Shown: positions 48,466 through 63,117 of the stretch, one piece after another
Layout: every line of letters begins with the position of its first letter
Numbering within the stretch: position 1 is the stretch's first letter
The notes under the pieces: model-generated
Database searches by the model: none
Told to the model about the DNA's origin: nothing
What the model saw: only the letters and a program-made list of their open reading frames with translations
Translations under genes and position numbers: made by a program
Source of the DNA: Rhodothermia bacterium
GTDB lineage: Bacteria > Bacteroidota > Rhodothermia > Balneolales > Balneolaceae
Direction: 5' to 3'
Length of the DNA stretch: 64,000 nt
Assembly (NCBI GenBank): GCA_030427885.1
Contig: JAUICM010000005.1
Location: 124,001 to 188,000 of the forward strand

Positions 48466-50546
48466 TAATTCAGTATTAGGGTTTCGATTTCATAATGAAG
48501 ACCATCGATCTCGATGAATTTTGAGGACTCGGTCACGCTGTTTGCTCCGCCATCATAATCGAGTACAAAACCGTATCCGGAACCAGCCTCAGCTCCTTTA
48601 GTAAATCCTTCCAGGAGCTGACCATCGTCCGCGACCACCGTCAAAGGATCTACCGCCTCATAATCTTCCGGATTGTAGTACTTGAGCTTTGTTATTCCGG
48701 TAGGATCTTCAAAGGCCTCTGCAGAAAAGCACTCCACTTCGCCGGTGACCATATTCCACTTGTATTCAAGTGGGATAGCATACAAGGTTTCAGTCTCACT
48801 AAGAGCCAGAGCGATTGTCTTCGTCCAGTCCGGGAGTAAATATTTCCGTGTTTTAAAAAGCGGGTATTCAATCTGATCGCGGTTACACTGGCACATCCTG
48901 TCATAAGGAGCCACTTCAAATATTGATGCTGAATTCCCGGCGTTATCGATGAAATCAGCAATGATCCACTCATCATTAGAGTCATAATATTCATAGCAGA
49001 AGCGCTCACTATATTCATCCGCATCGCCCTGGCCGAATACCAGGGTTACCCGCTGCGGGTTGCGAACACCACGACTATTCACATAGATTGCATCCTGTCG
49101 TTCAAAAGACAGTTTCAGCTCGATACTGAATTCATCCACATACACCTTCACTGGCCGAATCGCCACTGCTGCCGTGCTTTTGATATAGATCTCCACATAG
49201 CCTTGCTTGCCTTCAGGCGGAGTGATGGTCAGGCTGTCCGATACCGTTACAGCGTTCTGGTAGTCGATGGTTTCTTCCGTAAAATTGGTCAGGGTAACAT
49301 CATCGTAATCCTTCCAGGCAGCTGCTGCATAATCCCAAGCTTTGATCGTTCCATCTTCGCCATAAAACCACAGGCGCATGTATTCCACATCGCCGTCTTC
49401 ATTATTGATATCGATGCGGAAACTGAAATCCAGCTGGATACGATCTTCATCATTGATCGCATATTCTGAGCGCTGTTTAACCCAGCCGTCCTTCACCACA
49501 CCGCCTTCCAGTCCGTAAGTAGTCTGGAAGATGGAATCAGCGTTACCGGGATAGATCTGCTGATTCAGGTTATTCGCATAATAGATACCGGAGTGTTCCC
49601 ACCCGGAGCTGATCCAATATGACGAAGTATTGAACGGCTTCACCGAGCTGAAATCAGGATCTACAAACAGATCTCCATTCATTTTAAAGCGAGTGTATAT
49701 CTCTTTGGGGCCGGGCTTGAATCGACCTTTAGGCTTCAGAGTCACTTGATCAGAGGTGAGTGCTGTTCTGAAGGACTGGGTGATCAACGCTGGTTCCACG
49801 ATCGATGCACCAAATCGAATACCAGAGACCGATACCGGAGCCGTCAGCTGACGCTTACGCTCAACAATAACCCAGGTACGTTCCTGCTGTTTGATCTGCA
49901 GGTTGAACTGCTCGCAAAACACCTTTAGCACATCCCAATAAGAAAGCCGTCCACCAGTTTCATCATGTCGGATCATAAAGCTCTTTTTAACCCGGTACCC
50001 GATAGGAAAACGGCTGGCATTGTCGGAGCTTTCCCATTGGCTGAAGAATTCAATATTACCACCAAGACCGAGCCTGGTGAAGCATTCCTCGATAAAGGCA
50101 TCCAGTTCGATGTAGGCATCCTCGCCATTGAAGTATTCATCTTTGAGCAGGCCCATTGCATTCGTGGCCACCAGATCCAGCTGTGGATTGCTCTCAAAGT
50201 ATTCTTTGTCACTCGATGGCAGATACAGGTACAGCTCATATTCCACAGTCTCGTCATCCATCACCTGCAGCTTAAAATCCTTCTTGGCCCGGTTGGTCAT
50301 CCGGGATAACAGATCGTACTTGTCTTTGATACTGAATTGGATCTGTACCGGCATCATGAAATAGAACATATCATTGCCACGGTTGCCGGCCACCAGTAAG
50401 GGGTCACCTTTGATCCCGATCTCTGTCACTTCTTCCGGATCTTCCGCAAAGCGTTCCAGGATCTGGAATGTCCTGGTCTCAGAACTGCCGGCAGAGCTGG
50501 CATTCTTCATAAGGATATCTTCCGATGCGATCAGCGTGTAGCTCAT
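48465..50546 (-). CDS. Phage tail hub/baseplate-type protein
   Basis: A 693-residue protein following the tape measure gene, the usual place for distal tail and hub proteins of siphoviruses. N-terminal segments (TEIGIKGDPLLVAGNRGNDMF, IQFSIKDKYDLLSRMTN) look like distal-tail/hub folds; the middle (SYWDVLKVFCEQFNLQIKQQERTWVIVERK) resembles a tail-associated hub insertion seen in Bacteroidota phages. The C-terminal part (GQGDADEYSERFCYEYYDS) is unassigned. It overlaps the tape measure stop by four bases. No enzymatic motif was seen. Confidence 0.65.
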   Translation of the reverse strand: MSYTLIASEDILMKNASSAGSSETRTFQILERFAEDPEEVTEIGIKGDPLLVAGNRGNDMFYFMMPVQIQFSIKDKYDLLSRMTNRAKKDFKLQVMDDETVEYELYLYLPSSDKEYFESNPQLDLVATNAMGLLKDEYFNGEDAYIELDAFIEECFTRLGLGGNIEFFSQWESSDNASRFPIGYRVKKSFMIRHDETGGRLSYWDVLKVFCEQFNLQIKQQERTWVIVERKRQLTAPVSVSGIRFGASIVEPALITQSFRTALTSDQVTLKPKGRFKPGPKEIYTRFKMNGDLFVDPDFSSVKPFNTSSYWISSGWEHSGIYYANNLNQQIYPGNADSIFQTTYGLEGGVVKDGWVKQRSEYAINDEDRIQLDFSFRIDINNEDGDVEYMRLWFYGEDGTIKAWDYAAAAWKDYDDVTLTNFTEETIDYQNAVTVSDSLTITPPEGKQGYVEIYIKSTAAVAIRPVKVYVDEFSIELKLSFERQDAIYVNSRGVRNPQRVTLVFGQGDADEYSERFCYEYYDSNDEWIIADFIDNAGNSASIFEVAPYDRMCQCNRDQIEYPLFKTRKYLLPDWTKTIALALSETETLYAIPLEYKWNMVTGEVECFSAEAFEDPTGITKLKYYNPEDYEAVDPLTVVADDGQLLEGFTKGAEAGSGYGFVLDYDGGANSVTESSKFIEIDGLHYEIETLILN

Positions 50547-53338
50547 ACCTCGTTCCCCGTTACATCCTGATTGCGCTTATACTCTCTTTCCTTATCGATC
50601 ATTTCACCGATCGAGATAGCAGGCCGACGCGCCTCAACCCGGTCCATAGCAGCAGTCACGGCTTCAGCAATCACAGAGCTGTTGATCCCGGCCGGGGTAA
50701 TAGAAGGAAGGTCGATTTTCAGAGATCCTGATTGGATCATTCCACCTTGCGCCGCAGTAGGCAGGCCTCTGGCTAAGCGGGAAGCAAAGCCCGGATCTTC
50801 ATTTATGCGTTTAATGAGCGGGTAAGCTGCACGTGTGCTGTTCCGGTTGATCACATACTCGCCTTCCTCTGCCTCGATCAGGGTACCGCCCTGACTGTGG
50901 CGCTTACCGAATACCGGCCCGCCCTTCTCATAAGGGTTTGGCTGAGCTAAAATTACACCCGTTTGAAGAGCACCTAAAGAACCCACAACTGCCGCTAACA
51001 AAACATTAGGCAAAGCCTCAATTATACCAAGAGCAGTCTGCATTGCAGCACGAAATACATTTGCAGCTTTATCCAGGTTAAACTGCTTTCTCTTTTCAGC
51101 CTGTATTTTCTTAGCGTATTCTTCTTCAATCTTCTCACGTTTTTTTAACAGCTCTTTCTTCTGGTCCTCACTAAGATTTTCTGCAGCCAGCTCTGCATTT
51201 ACGTTTTCTAAACGCTGTTCCTTTTCACGTTCCAGATCATCGATCCGCCTTTCAATTGCTACACTGAACAAATCCACCATCGTATTGAATCCCTGGCCAA
51301 TGTAATCAAAGTACTCGCGGACCTGCTCCATCTTCTTCGCGTGGTCATCGTCCGTTTTTTGGCTCACTATATCCAGTTGCTCTAACAGCTCATAGAGTTC
51401 TGTCATCGTAGCAGCATGTTTCTCTCGATCAGCATCTGAAGTAGCTGCTATGTAGGCTTTTTCTTCCTCGCTAATACTTTTTTTAATGCCCTGAATAGAT
51501 ACCAGATCAGCCTTTATCTCATCTTGTTTCTTTTTCTCCTTTTCATACTTGGCAGTGATCCCGTCGATCTCTGCCTGCAGTTGCTCCATGCGTTGGTTGT
51601 GGGCATCGCGCTCCGCCTCAGTAGTGGCATTTAGGAACTTCTGCTTTTCATCATTAAGCTCTTTCTGCAGGCCGGCAAGAGTGCGAAGGTCTGCCACTTC
51701 GGTATTTTTCTTCGGATCATCATTTGAATTAGCCTTTTTAAGTGCTTCAATGTAGTGCTCAAATGAAACTGTACCTTCATCATAGGCTTTGCGTAACTCA
51801 GCCACTCGTGCTTCGTTGTTGGCTATCTCAAGGTTTAACTTTTCAAGATCTGGTGTTAACTCTCTTATCGTCGCCAGTGCGGTGGCATCAACACCTACAC
51901 TATTATCATCACTGCTTTTTTGAAGTTCCGCTATCTGATCCTTTATCGCGTCACGATTCTTTTTTCGGCGAAGAGTATCAATTTCAATAGCAGAAATCTG
52001 ATCAAATAAATAATCGTTTGTGCGTTCATAAGCTTCTCTCAGCTCTTCTTCTTTTTCCGCGGTCAGCTCTTTTTCCATTGCAGCCCTTGCGAGCTCTTCT
52101 CGTAGCGATCGCACCGATCGTGCCTGTGCATCGCTGGCACTGGTCTGCAGCAGCAGCTCTTTCCTGAGATCCGAATGGGTATCCAGCCATTGGTTGATCA
52201 CAGAGATACCACCTGCAAACTGCTCAATCAGTCCGGCCACATTGTTGATCAGGCTTACCATCAGGCCGTTGCTCTCCTGGAAAGCAGGGATAAGCGCACC
52301 ATCCATCACTGCCCACAATCGGTCAGTGGCACCTTCAAAGGTATCCATCCGTACTGCAGCCTGTTCATAAGCTACATTTGATCCGGTCACTTTCTCCGCC
52401 ATTGATTCCACGGCATCAGCTTCCCGGATAAGGATAGACGCCGCATTGAATGCTTCCTCACCAAAGATCTGCTTAAGAGCAGCAGCATCATCCAGGATAG
52501 GATTCAGTTGCTTCAGGGTTTTGATCATCCCGTTCGCTTTCAGATCCACATTTTCAATACCATATTTAGCGAGATCTTCGCCTGCGGTTTGCAGCCTGAG
52601 ATACATAGCACGGAGCGCGGTACCGGCACGCTCGCCCACCTGTCCATTGGCGGCCAGTATCTGTATCTGTGCGTTCACAGATTCAATATTGTCATCAGCT
52701 CCTGCAGCAGCAGATCCGGCATTGATCAGGGCAGAAGTAATACCGGGAACTTCAGCAGCTCCGTATTTAGATCCTGCCGCCATTGTGTTTATCACACGCG
52801 CACTTTCATCAGCGGAAAGATTAAACTGGTTTATGGCCATTGTAGTGGCCTGCACAGCTTCTTCCAGTTCAATACCTGCCGCCTTGCTCAGCACCACTGC
52901 TTCTTCAGATACTTTCTGCAGGGTCTGGAACCCTTCCTCAGTTCCGAAGTCGATCTTCTGGGCGAGCTGAGAGGCTACCAGTTTATTGGCCTCGATGATA
53001 TTGGATGCGCTGGTTCCGTAGATCTTGGAGAGCTGAAGAGATCGGGAGCCTAACCGGTCCAGCTGGGTGCCGGTGATGCCGGTGATCGCTTCCAGGCTGG
53101 CAAGCTGAGTCTCAAACTCTTTGCCTTTTTCAATACTCCGGGATACTGCACGCTGAAGCACCAATCCAACACCGCCAGCTGCTGCAATCCGTCCGATGTT
53201 GTCCAGGCTGAGCAGGCTCTTTGAAGTCTTCTGTACCTGATTCTCAAAGGTATCCTGCGCAGCTCCGGCTTTACGCCACCCGGTTACTGCTCCGGTGGAG
53301 TCAACATCAACGTAGTATGTAACAGTGGTTTTAGCCAT
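50543..53338 (-). CDS. Phage tail tape measure protein
   Basis: A 931-residue protein. The N-terminal third matches the TP901-type tape measure core (EFETQLASLEAITGITG, LSKIYGTSASNIIEANK, TTMAINQFNLSADESARV, INAGSAAAGADDNIESV, GQVGERAGTALRAMYLRLQT). The middle is long coiled coil rich in Lys and Glu, and hydrophobic segments lie near residues 765-790 (AALGIIEALPNVLLAAVVGSLG-like). At about 0.15 nm per residue this predicts a tail of about 140 nm. It starts inside the end of the -1 frame of the tail chaperone. Confidence 0.93.
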   Translation of the reverse strand: MAKTTVTYYVDVDSTGAVTGWRKAGAAQDTFENQVQKTSKSLLSLDNIGRIAAAGGVGLVLQRAVSRSIEKGKEFETQLASLEAITGITGTQLDRLGSRSLQLSKIYGTSASNIIEANKLVASQLAQKIDFGTEEGFQTLQKVSEEAVVLSKAAGIELEEAVQATTMAINQFNLSADESARVINTMAAGSKYGAAEVPGITSALINAGSAAAGADDNIESVNAQIQILAANGQVGERAGTALRAMYLRLQTAGEDLAKYGIENVDLKANGMIKTLKQLNPILDDAAALKQIFGEEAFNAASILIREADAVESMAEKVTGSNVAYEQAAVRMDTFEGATDRLWAVMDGALIPAFQESNGLMVSLINNVAGLIEQFAGGISVINQWLDTHSDLRKELLLQTSASDAQARSVRSLREELARAAMEKELTAEKEEELREAYERTNDYLFDQISAIEIDTLRRKKNRDAIKDQIAELQKSSDDNSVGVDATALATIRELTPDLEKLNLEIANNEARVAELRKAYDEGTVSFEHYIEALKKANSNDDPKKNTEVADLRTLAGLQKELNDEKQKFLNATTEAERDAHNQRMEQLQAEIDGITAKYEKEKKKQDEIKADLVSIQGIKKSISEEEKAYIAATSDADREKHAATMTELYELLEQLDIVSQKTDDDHAKKMEQVREYFDYIGQGFNTMVDLFSVAIERRIDDLEREKEQRLENVNAELAAENLSEDQKKELLKKREKIEEEYAKKIQAEKRKQFNLDKAANVFRAAMQTALGIIEALPNVLLAAVVGSLGALQTGVILAQPNPYEKGGPVFGKRHSQGGTLIEAEEGEYVINRNSTRAAYPLIKRINEDPGFASRLARGLPTAAQGGMIQSGSLKIDLPSITPAGINSSVIAEAVTAAMDRVEARRPAISIGEMIDKEREYKRNQDVTGNEV

Positions 53339-54100
53339 ATAGCAATTTACTCAGGTACGCCAGGGCGATCTGAGTGTAGGTTCTTTGGTGCGTCAGTCTT
53401 TCAAGGGTTTCGTCGTTCCCGGCCGAAAGCATCAGGATCAGACGGTTATGAAGATCCAGCTCCTTAGTGGTTTCAGTTCTCCATGTTGCCAATTCATCTT
53501 CATAATCGTCCCAGGCCTGTTGGGCCTCGGTCAGTTCTGAAGTAGTTCGCCCAGGTTGTTCTGGCCGTTTATTGATCTTGCCAAGAATTCGTTCAGCGCT
53601 TTCGATGTCGGATTCCGCTTGCCCGCAAAATCTAAAAAAGCCTGGTTCACCACGTCTTCTTTCAGGTTGTCAAATGCATCCTGATCCAGTATGGTGATCT
53701 TTGGTTCTTTCTCTTTTCCTTCCGGCCAGCTCACGTCCAGGATCTCCTTAAACCCATCAAACAGCACCGGGGCAAGGGCGGCGTGGATGTAGTACTCGGT
53801 ATATACATCTTCTACCTGGTACAGGGGTTTTCGGGTCACTCTGATGGCAGCCACTTTCTTTTCTTCTTCAGTGAGAAAGCGTTCCAGTTTGTTCGTTTTA
53901 GCATCGATCCTCACTTCCAGCCATTTGAAAGGAGTATCGCCGGCCTGCTCGGCCCAGTCGGCCCGGTCGGCTTCTTCGCTCCGGATGCGCTTACTGCACA
54001 CCGCAGCCAGTTGTCGGATATTTCCCTTGCTGGTCACCTTCAGCGGATAGCGCTGTTTAGGGTCATTAGCCAGGGGATAGTACATTTTTTTTTCACTCAT
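53331..54100 (-). CDS. Tail assembly chaperone GT-like fusion made by -1 frameshift
   Basis: Frame 0 runs 54100 to the slippery site at 53639-53633. After slipping on T-TTT-TTA, reading continues in the -1 frame through about 100 codons with no stop (RFCGQAESDIESAERILG, ELTEAQQAWDDYEDEL, ALAYLSKLLYG) to TAA at 53333-53331. The product would be about 255 residues. This -1 segment has no start of its own and ends inside the tape measure ATG, as in lambda G-T. The extension is rich in Glu, Leu and Arg and looks helical. Frameshifting is inferred from sequence and position. Confidence 0.8.
53531..54100 (-). CDS. Tail assembly chaperone, frame-0 product (G-like)
   Basis: A 189-residue protein directly upstream of the tape measure, the G position of siphoviruses. 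It is acidic and mixed alpha/beta (YYPLANDPKQRYPLKVTSKGN, EVRIDAKTNKLERFLTEEEK, VEDVYTEYYIHAALAPVLFDG) and carries no signal peptide or helix. It would be made in excess over the frameshifted form and help load tube subunits around the tape measure. The start is followed by SEKKMYY; a gap of 11 bases separates it from the next upstream gene. Confidence 0.8.
   Translation of the reverse strand: MSEKKMYYPLANDPKQRYPLKVTSKGNIRQLAAVCSKRIRSEEADRADWAEQAGDTPFKWLEVRIDAKTNKLERFLTEEEKKVAAIRVTRKPLYQVEDVYTEYYIHAALAPVLFDGFKEILDVSWPEGKEKEPKITILDQDAFDNLKEDVVNQAFLDFAGKRNPTSKALNEFLARSINGQNNLGELLQN
53633..53639 (-). promoter_or_regulatory. -1 ribosomal slippery heptamer T-TTT-TTA
   Basis: In the coding strand the frame-0 codons are GCT TTT TTA GAT, so the heptamer obeys X-XXY-YYZ with X=Y=T and Z=A, the same as the HIV-1 site. 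It is placed where frame -1 is already open and before the frame-0 stop. No strong downstream hairpin could be named by eye. Confidence 0.8.
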
Positions 54101-54111
54101 AGGTTTGCCCG

Positions 54112-54615
54112 TTATCGGTTGAACCAGCTGGGGTATGAAGTCAGCGGGTTTTTGGTTAAAAATCGTATTGGCATCGATGGAACGAAGCGACCGCTTTTGG
54201 CGGCGCTTAGCAGCTCATTACTGCCAGACTCTGGGATCACTTCGTATTTGGTAGCCACATTCACATCATCGCCGTCCTGCAGGGCAGGGTAGAAATACAC
54301 AGGGGTGGTCTTATGCGCCACCAGGGCATTCAGCAGATCCGCGATCCCGATAGCACTCACAGAAGGGTAATCTGTATCATCGGCGAGAGTGTAGGCGGCA
54401 CCGGCATTCAGTTGCTGAGCCAGATATCCCGCCCGAAAATGAAAGCGGAAATGCAGACTGATCAGATCGGCGTTGTTCTTACGGCTGGCGCTGGTCCATT
54501 CGTCCCATTCCGGAAGATCCTGGATCTTATACTCACCAACCTCGAACAGATACACGTTTCCGTCATACTCGAAGGCGGCAATGGTGATCCGGTCGCTTCC
54601 TGCTATTCCTGGCAT
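54112..54615 (-). CDS. Phage structural protein, unassigned (tail module)
   Basis: A 167-residue protein between the tail tube genes and the chaperone. It is mostly beta (ITIAAFEYDGNVYLFEVGEYKI, ADLISLHFRFHFRAGYLAQQ, TPVYFYPALQDGDDVNVATKYEVIPESG). No catalytic motif, helix or signal was seen. Position and pattern suggest a minor tail component or tail completion protein. I do not recognise the family. Confidence 0.65.
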   Translation of the reverse strand: MPGIAGSDRITIAAFEYDGNVYLFEVGEYKIQDLPEWDEWTSASRKNNADLISLHFRFHFRAGYLAQQLNAGAAYTLADDTDYPSVSAIGIADLLNALVAHKTTPVYFYPALQDGDDVNVATKYEVIPESGSNELLSAAKSGRFVPSMPIRFLTKNPLTSYPSWFNR

Positions 54616-54626
54616 AGTTCATCCTC

Positions 54627-55319
54627 CTAGCCTGCCACGTAGTCTTCCAGGCCATCTGCTCTGAGTGAGGCCTGCGTTGCTCCGTTCAGCGTCCAATCGA
54701 TCCGCCAGGTGTTGGCCGGAAGGGTTAGTGTGACAGATCCGCGCTCATTGTTGAAGCTGTCAGTGGCTGATCCAAGACTACTGCCATCGGTGCCGTCCGT
54801 GCCATAATCAAACGCTTCCAGGGTAAGATCAAAAGCACTTGCTTTGGTGGCGGCCAGCGTTAGGTCGATACCCGCGATCGGTAACACCAGCGAAGTGCCG
54901 GCCTCACCATAGATCAGGTTTTTACGCTGCTTCGGTGAAGCATCGTCTTTTTCCAAAGTGATCTTCAGCGAGTTGTCACCTTCGTTGCGTTTCACTTTGG
55001 TCATCGGAAGCAGCTGCTTTGCGGCAGTGAACACCGTCCAGATCATGGAACGGCTGAAACGGCCTTTCCCGATCGCAACCATTCGCAGAGGCGTGCGGGC
55101 AGCCTTCCAGCTTTCGATCTGTGATTCACCCTCAAAGTCCGGGGATTCCAGCATCATGCTGTTACGCTCCCCGCTTTGATAATCACCAGTGGTATGTTCT
55201 TGGTTGATGGGCTCTATTCCGTAACCTGTCTCACCTACCAACAGGTTTAACTGTACCACGTTGCCGGCGGCATCAAATACAGAGCCGAGATCCCAGTCGT
55301 CTGTGTAATAGATAGACAT
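54627..55319 (-). CDS. Tail tube-like protein, longer paralogue
   Basis: A 230-residue protein sharing two landmarks with the gene immediately upstream: QEHTTGDYQSGE (about residue 39) and KVKRNEGD (about residue 108). The C-terminal part adds an Ig-like or beta-sandwich extension (LVLPIAGIDLTLAATKASAFDLTLEAFDYG). It is likely a tail tube or tube-decoration subunit. The pair arose by duplication and diverged. Eleven bases separate it from the next gene downstream. Confidence 0.65.
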   Translation of the reverse strand: MSIYYTDDWDLGSVFDAAGNVVQLNLLVGETGYGIEPINQEHTTGDYQSGERNSMMLESPDFEGESQIESWKAARTPLRMVAIGKGRFSRSMIWTVFTAAKQLLPMTKVKRNEGDNSLKITLEKDDASPKQRKNLIYGEAGTSLVLPIAGIDLTLAATKASAFDLTLEAFDYGTDGTDGSSLGSATDSFNNERGSVTLTLPANTWRIDWTLNGATQASLRADGLEDYVAG

Positions 55320-55328
55320 AGTTCAGGA

Positions 55329-55742
55329 TTAAGAGGTTAAGGCTGCAATTTTAGTGAAAGCGGTATCGCCGTCTTCATTCCAGGAAATACTCCATTCAGC
55401 GTCGCCTTCATTTCGTTTTGCTTTTGGAACCAGAAGCGCCTTCATGAATACCGGATCAGTGGTTTTCAGGATCACGCCGTCTTTGAATACCAGCGCCACA
55501 TATTTTTTCACGCGGTTAAGCGCCTTTACAGTCGCATAGTCTTCAAAATCATTCAGGTAAATGGTCGGTGCTCCATTCTCGCCAGACTGGTAGTTTCCGG
55601 TCGTATGTTCCTGCTCGATAGATGTGGGCGGTAAGTTCTCCGCACGTGTGATGGTTCCACTGGCTTGTGTCCAGCTGTCAACCGTTCCATCATCACTGTA
55701 GTGAATTTCTTCAACTCCACCGGTTCTGTATTCTGCTGCCAT
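55329..55742 (-). CDS. Tail tube-like protein, shorter paralogue
   Basis: A 137-residue protein containing QEHTTGNYQSGE (about residue 45) and KAKRNEGD (about residue 107), the same landmarks as the longer neighbour. It is compact, beta-rich and lacks the C-terminal extension. Size fits a minimal tail tube subunit. It lies nine bases before the longer paralogue. Which of the two forms the main tube cannot be told from sequence. Confidence 0.65.
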   Translation of the reverse strand: MAAEYRTGGVEEIHYSDDGTVDSWTQASGTITRAENLPPTSIEQEHTTGNYQSGENGAPTIYLNDFEDYATVKALNRVKKYVALVFKDGVILKTTDPVFMKALLVPKAKRNEGDAEWSISWNEDGDTAFTKIAALTS

Positions 55743-61779: not shown

Positions 61780-61783
61780 CTAA
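61722..61783. repeat. Degenerate AACAGCTAAC-type repeat
   Basis: Overlapping copies of words such as CCAACAG, CAGCTAA and CTAACCACC recur about every seven to ten bases, reaching into the stop codon of the minor head gene. Similar degenerate repeats are common between genes in Bacteroidota-like genomes. Its origin is unknown. Confidence 0.6.
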
Positions 61784-63117
61784 TCCTCCCAAGAGCCCTT
61801 CAGCCTCAATCCATTAGATAATGAACCGGCAAAAGAACCGGCAGGATTATCCAGTCCGCGTATAGAATGAAACTGCAGATCATCACCCACCACCGCCGTA
61901 CCCGCATCCGAAAAGAAATGAAATTCAAACTGACGCTTGCCATCCGGCGTATTATTCACCTTCGCAATGATCCCATTCGCATTTCGAATGATCCCGCGAC
62001 CGGCCTTCAGGTACTCATCCGCATCCTCGGCAATACCCAGCGATCCCGCATACTGCGCCAGATTCTTATCCAGGGTATCAGGATCGAAGCCCATGCGGCG
62101 CTTGCTGCGGATCGTATCCACCCAGTTGGAATATTCGCCGGCATCCAGGCTGTTCAGTTTCTTCTTGTCATCCCGGCCAACACCCTTGCCCATTTTAGAG
62201 CCCGTCACCGTATTACGCTCACTGATCTCCCGTTCAGCCCTTAGCACGGTACGGCAGGCGAAATGATAGCCGGGGATCTTAGCCCCGTTCGGCAGGTTTT
62301 TGGTCTTGATCTGCGAGATCTGCTCCGCCTGGGGCCACGGCGCGATCTCCCGTATCTTTTCAGGGTCATCATTATCGATGATACGATTCATCTCTATAAC
62401 AAGCTCACTCACTTTAATACGCCGCCCGTGCATATGGCGACACACTTCCGTAGTACGGTGATCCAGCTGAGCCTCCACAACCGCCCATTCAATTTCGGCA
62501 CGCACCATTCCGTTGATGCTTCCAAACTCACGCGACCGGGTTACCACATGATCAGCATATCCTTCCCAGTAGCGGAAGCTCTGCACGTTGTACTTCTTGG
62601 CAAACTCATCCATGAACAGCTTGCCCGCTTCCTCACGGTTCAGGCCGCCCTCAATGATCTGCTTTCCAAACTCCCTGATTTTATCCTGCAGCTGATCGTC
62701 AAAATGGTGGAGTACCGGGTAGGTGGCATAGCGTTCCAGCGCAGCCAGGGCGCGGGTGTCCACAATGTTAAAGGTAGGTTTAAAAGCGAGAATGCCCTCC
62801 ATTCCTGCCACATAACTGCTCGTCTGCAATTCCAGCATATCTGCAGCCACATCATTGGCAAAGGAAGGACCGAGCCGAACCCGCAGTTGTGCGATCATCT
62901 GGTCCAGTGCTTCCTCTGTAAACGCCTCCCGGTTATTCACCGCCCGGATCACATCCCGTATCGCCTCCGTAGTCGCATCATTCCACGAACGGATCAGCAA
63001 ATCCTGCAACTCCGCCGAGATCCGGTCATACTCATCCTTCCTCACCAACGCCCATATCTTCCGCGCCTCAATGATCCCCTTCGTAACCAGATAATATTTC
63101 CTCAGATCCTGAAGCAT
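61780..63117 (-). CDS. Phage minor head protein (SPP1 gp7/Mu gpF-like)
   Basis: A 445-residue protein. The middle carries the minor-head signature SFRYWEGYADHVVTRSREFGSINGMVRAEIEWAVVEAQLDHRTTEVCRHMHGRRIKVSEL in pieces (about residues 196-254): the D-x2-TTEVCRHMHG segment matches the conserved Cys/His core of gp7/gpF proteins. The C-terminal 130 residues (YLKAGRGIIRNANGIIAKV, FHFFSDAGTAVVGDDLQFHSIRGL) are an extra domain that may be DNA- or capsid-binding. It sits after the portal and before the protease as expected. Confidence 0.88.
   Translation of the reverse strand: MLQDLRKYYLVTKGIIEARKIWALVRKDEYDRISAELQDLLIRSWNDATTEAIRDVIRAVNNREAFTEEALDQMIAQLRVRLGPSFANDVAADMLELQTSSYVAGMEGILAFKPTFNIVDTRALAALERYATYPVLHHFDDQLQDKIREFGKQIIEGGLNREEAGKLFMDEFAKKYNVQSFRYWEGYADHVVTRSREFGSINGMVRAEIEWAVVEAQLDHRTTEVCRHMHGRRIKVSELVIEMNRIIDNDDPEKIREIAPWPQAEQISQIKTKNLPNGAKIPGYHFACRTVLRAEREISERNTVTGSKMGKGVGRDDKKKLNSLDAGEYSNWVDTIRSKRRMGFDPDTLDKNLAQYAGSLGIAEDADEYLKAGRGIIRNANGIIAKVNNTPDGKRQFEFHFFSDAGTAVVGDDLQFHSIRGLDNPAGSFAGSLSNGLRLKGSWED

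Follow-up and report, generated by a model that had tools for sequence, protein, structure and literature searches.

Between a 189-codon gene and the tape measure gene of a Bacteroidota prophage lies a long open reading frame in the -1 phase that hardly any start codon could serve, which raises the question of whether one protein or two are made from this gene. The window, that is, the whole stretch of 64,000 nucleotides that was analyzed, corresponds to C10:124001-188000 of a 4.1 Mb genome in 13 contigs. The prophage very probably makes a rare, longer form of a tail-assembly helper protein by a -1 slip of the ribosome. We give a probability of about 0.86 to the reading in which the locus is a tail assembly chaperone pair of the lambda G/GT type, with -1 ribosomal frameshifting, carried by a Mu-like prophage; the proposed fusion would then be a protein overlooked by standard gene calling. 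The features concerned are the following:

50543..53338, minus strand: tape measure protein, 931 aa (PHROG 28 at 1.3e-35; Pfam PhageMin_Tail at 1.2e-20)
53331..53633, minus strand: T-like -1 frame, 100 codons post-slip, first codon AGA at 53633, stop TAA at 53333-53331
53331..54100, minus strand: proposed G-T fusion, 256 residues, the predicted product of a -1 shift
53531..54100, minus strand: G-like ORF, 189 aa, proposed from its position to be a tail assembly chaperone
53633..53639, minus strand: slippery heptamer T-TTT-TTA, in phase, at codons 155-156 of the 189-aa ORF
54112..54615, minus strand: 167-aa gene directly upstream of G, no family match
54627..55319, minus strand: candidate major tail protein, a function suggested by position (33% identity to 55329-55742)
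55329..55742, minus strand: second, shorter candidate tail protein, paralogous to 54627-55319

The genetic setting was read from the neighboring genes. Beyond the right edge of the window (L017) we found a terminase (phrog_38, 1.6e-56), a portal (1.3e-23), a transposase-like protein with a weak rve match (0.0047) and a MuB-like ATPase (AAA_22, 1.5e-13), and the window itself holds a weak Phage_Mu_F match at 61780-63117 (0.0015). Together, the terminase, the portal, the transposase-like protein and the MuB-like AAA ATPase mark the island, judged on its gene content, as a Mu-like transposable prophage. The adjacent paralogues at 54627-55319 and 55329-55742 share the motif EHTTG-YQSGE and may represent a duplication of the major tail protein. 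Elsewhere in the same genome (G000:C13:191153-191791, L025), a further phage-like region, with large ORFs of its own, holds a second terminase-like gene that shows 32% identity over 208 residues.

All frames of the minus strand were laid out from 54400 to 53000. The G/T pair immediately precedes the tape measure gene on the same strand, and the heptamer at 53639-53633, which frame 0 reads as GCT TTT TTA, is in the phase needed for tandem -1 slippage, as the first-pass annotation had stated; it is the sole in-phase XXXYYYZ site in the 45-codon G/T overlap. An open -1 frame extends from 53669 to 53331 (112 codons), and the roughly 100 codons previously claimed between the 189-residue gene and the tape measure proved to be exactly 100 after the slip. 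Frame 0 continues for 33 codons beyond the heptamer. A shift would join 156 frame-0 residues (through TTA) to 100 residues of the -1 frame (from AGA), with AFLRFCGQ across the junction, so that the fusion comes to 256 residues and not the 255 given earlier. The TAA that ends it does fall within the tape measure gene, whose ATG is at 53338-53336, but in codons 2-3 (ATG GCT AAA, 53338-53330) and not inside the ATG itself, as had been annotated; the overlap of the two genes is 8 bases.

In the proposed mechanism, most ribosomes would read the 189-aa frame-0 protein (G), and a small fraction would slip back one base on T-TTT-TTA, with tRNA-Phe and tRNA-Leu re-pairing on TTT TTT, to give the G-T fusion ending just inside the tape measure gene. 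If the lambda model applies, the tape measure would be coated by many copies of G and few of G-T, with the T portion bringing in the major tail protein, and both G and G-T would be absent from the virion. A published review covers what G-T frameshifting does and how widely it is conserved; according to the same work, U-UUU-UUA is much less shift-prone in Escherichia coli than A-AAA-AAG and a slip at UUUUUUA can yield both Leu and Phe (PMC5009743). The junction of the fusion could accordingly read AFLRFCGQ or AFFRFCGQ. A modest slip site would fit a low fraction of fusion protein, though this is not proof of it. No signal of a stimulatory RNA structure was seen downstream of the slip site (z of 0.24; z between -1.2 and 1.7 in a second test).

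We then asked how much of this arrangement chance would provide, with codon tables built from 5,493 codons in 19 further genes of this prophage. The rate of in-phase XXXYYYZ sites is 0.0058 per codon and that of the T6/A6 type 0.0020 per codon, so that 0.26 and 0.09, respectively, would be expected by chance in the 45-codon overlap, and the heptamer alone is for this reason weak evidence. The strong part of the case is the open, coding-like and start-poor frame at this position. With a -1-frame stop frequency of 0.083 per codon in the prophage's genes, an open run of 112 codons has a probability of ~6e-5, and no -1-frame run of at least 90 codons was found inside the prophage's other genes. 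The 100 T codons have a coding score of 0.146 per codon, which none of 308 wrong-frame 100-codon pieces reached; among real genes this would rank low, with 97% of the true pieces above it. When the window and five other bacterial stretches were scanned, this was the only pair combining a start-poor -1 run, an in-phase site and an adjoining tape measure. A coincidental and untranslated -1 frame beside a heptamer, which the frequency of in-phase sites would allow, is scarcely credible given the length of the run, its score, and a place and layout typical of other phages.

The score also varies along the locus. It is 0.33 per codon in the G frame up to the slip site, and in the T frame it peaks after the frame-0 stop, where the remaining 65 codons reach 0.223 per codon. 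Such a peak would be expected if T were a separate short gene, coupled to G by termination and re-initiation, and the -1 frame does offer starts for it: TTG 53492 (53 aa), ATG 53432 (33 aa), and CTG 53534, which overlaps the frame-0 stop. The earlier description of a frame with no start thus holds for the first 47 codons after the slip, where there is no ATG, GTG or TTG, and fails further on, where the TTG and the ATG exist. However, the 46 codons ahead of TTG 53492 are already coding-like in the T frame (0.177 per codon vs -0.009 in frame 0), the T frame is open back through the heptamer, and the comparator phages described below have the same start-poor layout. We therefore regard a separately initiated T as improbable and favor continuous translation into T by frameshifting.

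Two further explanations turn on the run of six Ts. As the junction is a homopolymer, where one base fewer or more changes the frame, a sequencing or assembly error could have split one continuous gene, in which case only the fusion would exist. Against this, frame 0 stays open and coding-like for the 33 codons beyond the run (0.149 per codon, with the T frame near neutral at 0.011 over the same overlap), and the frame changes at the same place in nine of nine comparators, unlike a random error, making such an artifact still less probable than a separate T gene. A homopolymer could equally be a site for slippage of the RNA polymerase, which would make the frame change real but produced through mixed mRNAs. 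Six Ts are nevertheless short for slippage by bacterial RNA polymerase, and the run lies in the exact heptamer phase for ribosomal slippage; we consider the transcriptional route very improbable. A -1 shift of the ribosome is the reading that we retain.

Relatives of the G and T proteins were sought in several collections. Neither G, T nor the fusion gave a PHROG, Pfam or PDB sequence match above noise, and nothing above noise was found for them in IMG/VR, 195 related genomes, 394 phylum-level genomes or GenBank phages. Weak matches to G in genomes G006 and G072 (E of about 0.01) were rejected, as they are located among host housekeeping genes. No relatives turned up either when the queries were the major capsid, the 693-aa gene that follows the tape measure, or the candidate tail protein, and the single-sequence AlphaFold model of G alone was unusable (pLDDT 37). 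The G-T frameshift device is known to be conserved despite low sequence similarity (PMC5009743). Because G, T and the fusion are without a detectable homologue, we compared the architecture in distant phages instead.

Nine comparators, chosen by terminase or tape measure similarity or as known Mu-like phages and not at random, were inspected: PaMx73, B3, RcapMu, 3927AP2, BalMu-1, Peternella_1, TCUEAP3, CAM-P21 and genome G270. In all nine, a -1 run crosses the stop codon of the gene that precedes the tape measure, a likeness of architecture only that does not imply homology to the window's genes. An in-phase XXXYYYZ site is present in the overlap of eight of them (T-TTT-TTC in PaMx73, C-CCT-TTC in B3, G-GGA-AAC in RcapMu, A-AAA-AAG in 3927AP2 and Peternella_1, A-AAA-AAC in BalMu-1, T-TTT-TTT in G270 and T-TTT-TTG in CAM-P21), and none was found in TCUEAP3. 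The same style of inspection revealed no clear -1 pair in Flavobacterium phage FCV-1, Bacteroides phage BT-TP2, some faecal contigs and genome G138.

The layout of the G270 prophage (L037:207-886) is as in the window, with a T frame that lacks a start for 66 codons and ends at the tape measure TAATG; a resemblance of its T to that of the window, seen by eye, was not significant (shuffle P of 0.08). In Elizabethkingia phage TCUEAP3, the start-poor -1 frame (L029:22157-22456) is unannotated, and its T matches phrog_11996.

Taken together, the ORFs, their phase, the open and coding-like -1 frame, the gene order and the comparative architecture support the G/GT reading, and we infer the slippage itself, its rate and the chaperone function. 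The lambda G/GT-like interpretation proposed from the first pass is supported by the position, phase, direction and heptamer, by the -1 coding score and by the comparison with Mu-like phages.

A group of IMG/VR phages (L004-L006 and L038-L055 except L048) has a tape measure 35-39% identical to that of the window over about 300 residues, its N-terminal half. The layout in these phages resembles that of the window, with a gene of ~165 aa, a start-poor frame of ~95 codons and then the tape measure, but their T occupies the +1 (or -2) frame and not the -1 frame. The junction TTT-TTT-CG(T/C) is invariant in 15 of 15 distinct sequences, many of which are closely related, and TTC accounts for a third of the Phe codons elsewhere in the same G genes (41 of 125). 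The extended junction AAR-TTT-TTT-CGY is likewise found in all 15 (L004:4290-4345 and the same place in L005, L038-L047 and L050-L055). Six of these sequences have no ATG, GTG or TTG in the T frame for 30 to 186 bases past the site; the remaining nine carry a GTG, not conserved, three bases past it. Influenza PA-X uses UUU-CGU as its +1 shift motif (PMC3498833), and the clade's junction is a candidate +1 tail chaperone frameshift resembling it; for the clade sequence AAATTTTTTCGT, +1 and -2 are the alternatives.

When the G and T families from IMG/VR were compared with the window's G and T at the profile level, no homology was detected. For the IMG/VR G family, structure prediction gave a confident fold (pLDDT 93.8), but this fold has no PDB match and resembles named tail chaperones only very weakly (E of 1-3). 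It is conceivable, though doubtful, that the direction of frameshifting switched around the same U6 core, from or to -1 at U-UUU-UUA in the prophage and +1 at UUU-UUU-CGN in the IMG/VR clade. If so, evolution could exchange one direction for the other and still preserve the G:GT outcome.

The -1 tail chaperone frameshift is a widespread and well-described device used by most long-tailed phages, and the locus is a new example of it. The +1 (or -2) by-product from IMG/VR is of more interest than the -1 locus itself. What the locus adds is a G/GT pair of low similarity, in a prophage tail module with almost no sequenced relatives in the searched collections. Start-poor T frames ahead of tape measures are also left unannotated in published Bacteroidota-host phages such as Peternella_1, whose record lacks the T frame at L028:26615-26899.

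Among the known systems, Peternella_1 (a Winogradskyella phage, genes 46 to 47) is likewise Mu-like with a Bacteroidota host and has a start-poor -1 frame of 94 codons, an in-phase heptamer and a stop inside the tape measure start, but it is of the contractile-tail type (annotated sheath), uses another heptamer and has no sequence similarity. In lambda, the heptamer is G-GGA-AAG instead of T-TTT-TTA, no sequence similarity was detected, and the shift occurs near the very end of G, whereas 33 frame-0 codons follow the slip in the window. Shared with lambda gpG/gpGT are the position before the tape measure, the -1 direction, and a short product with a rare C-terminal extension (PMC5009743).

The nearest precedent is PaMx73, a Pseudomonas Mu-like siphophage of the D3112 group (core ORFs 35/36), for which a -1 frameshift at T-TTT-TTC has been proposed at the same position (PMC4378225). 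It differs from the window in its host and in its Z base (C instead of A), and the similarity of the G proteins is not significant (shuffle P of 0.49). The two nevertheless share a Mu-like genome, a T-TTT-TTN site in the gene just before the tape measure, a long frame-0 remainder after the site (43 codons in PaMx73 vs 33 in the window) and a -1 run that extends to the tape measure start, and in both the run is preceded, at a distance of one base, by AACCAGG, which may be chance.
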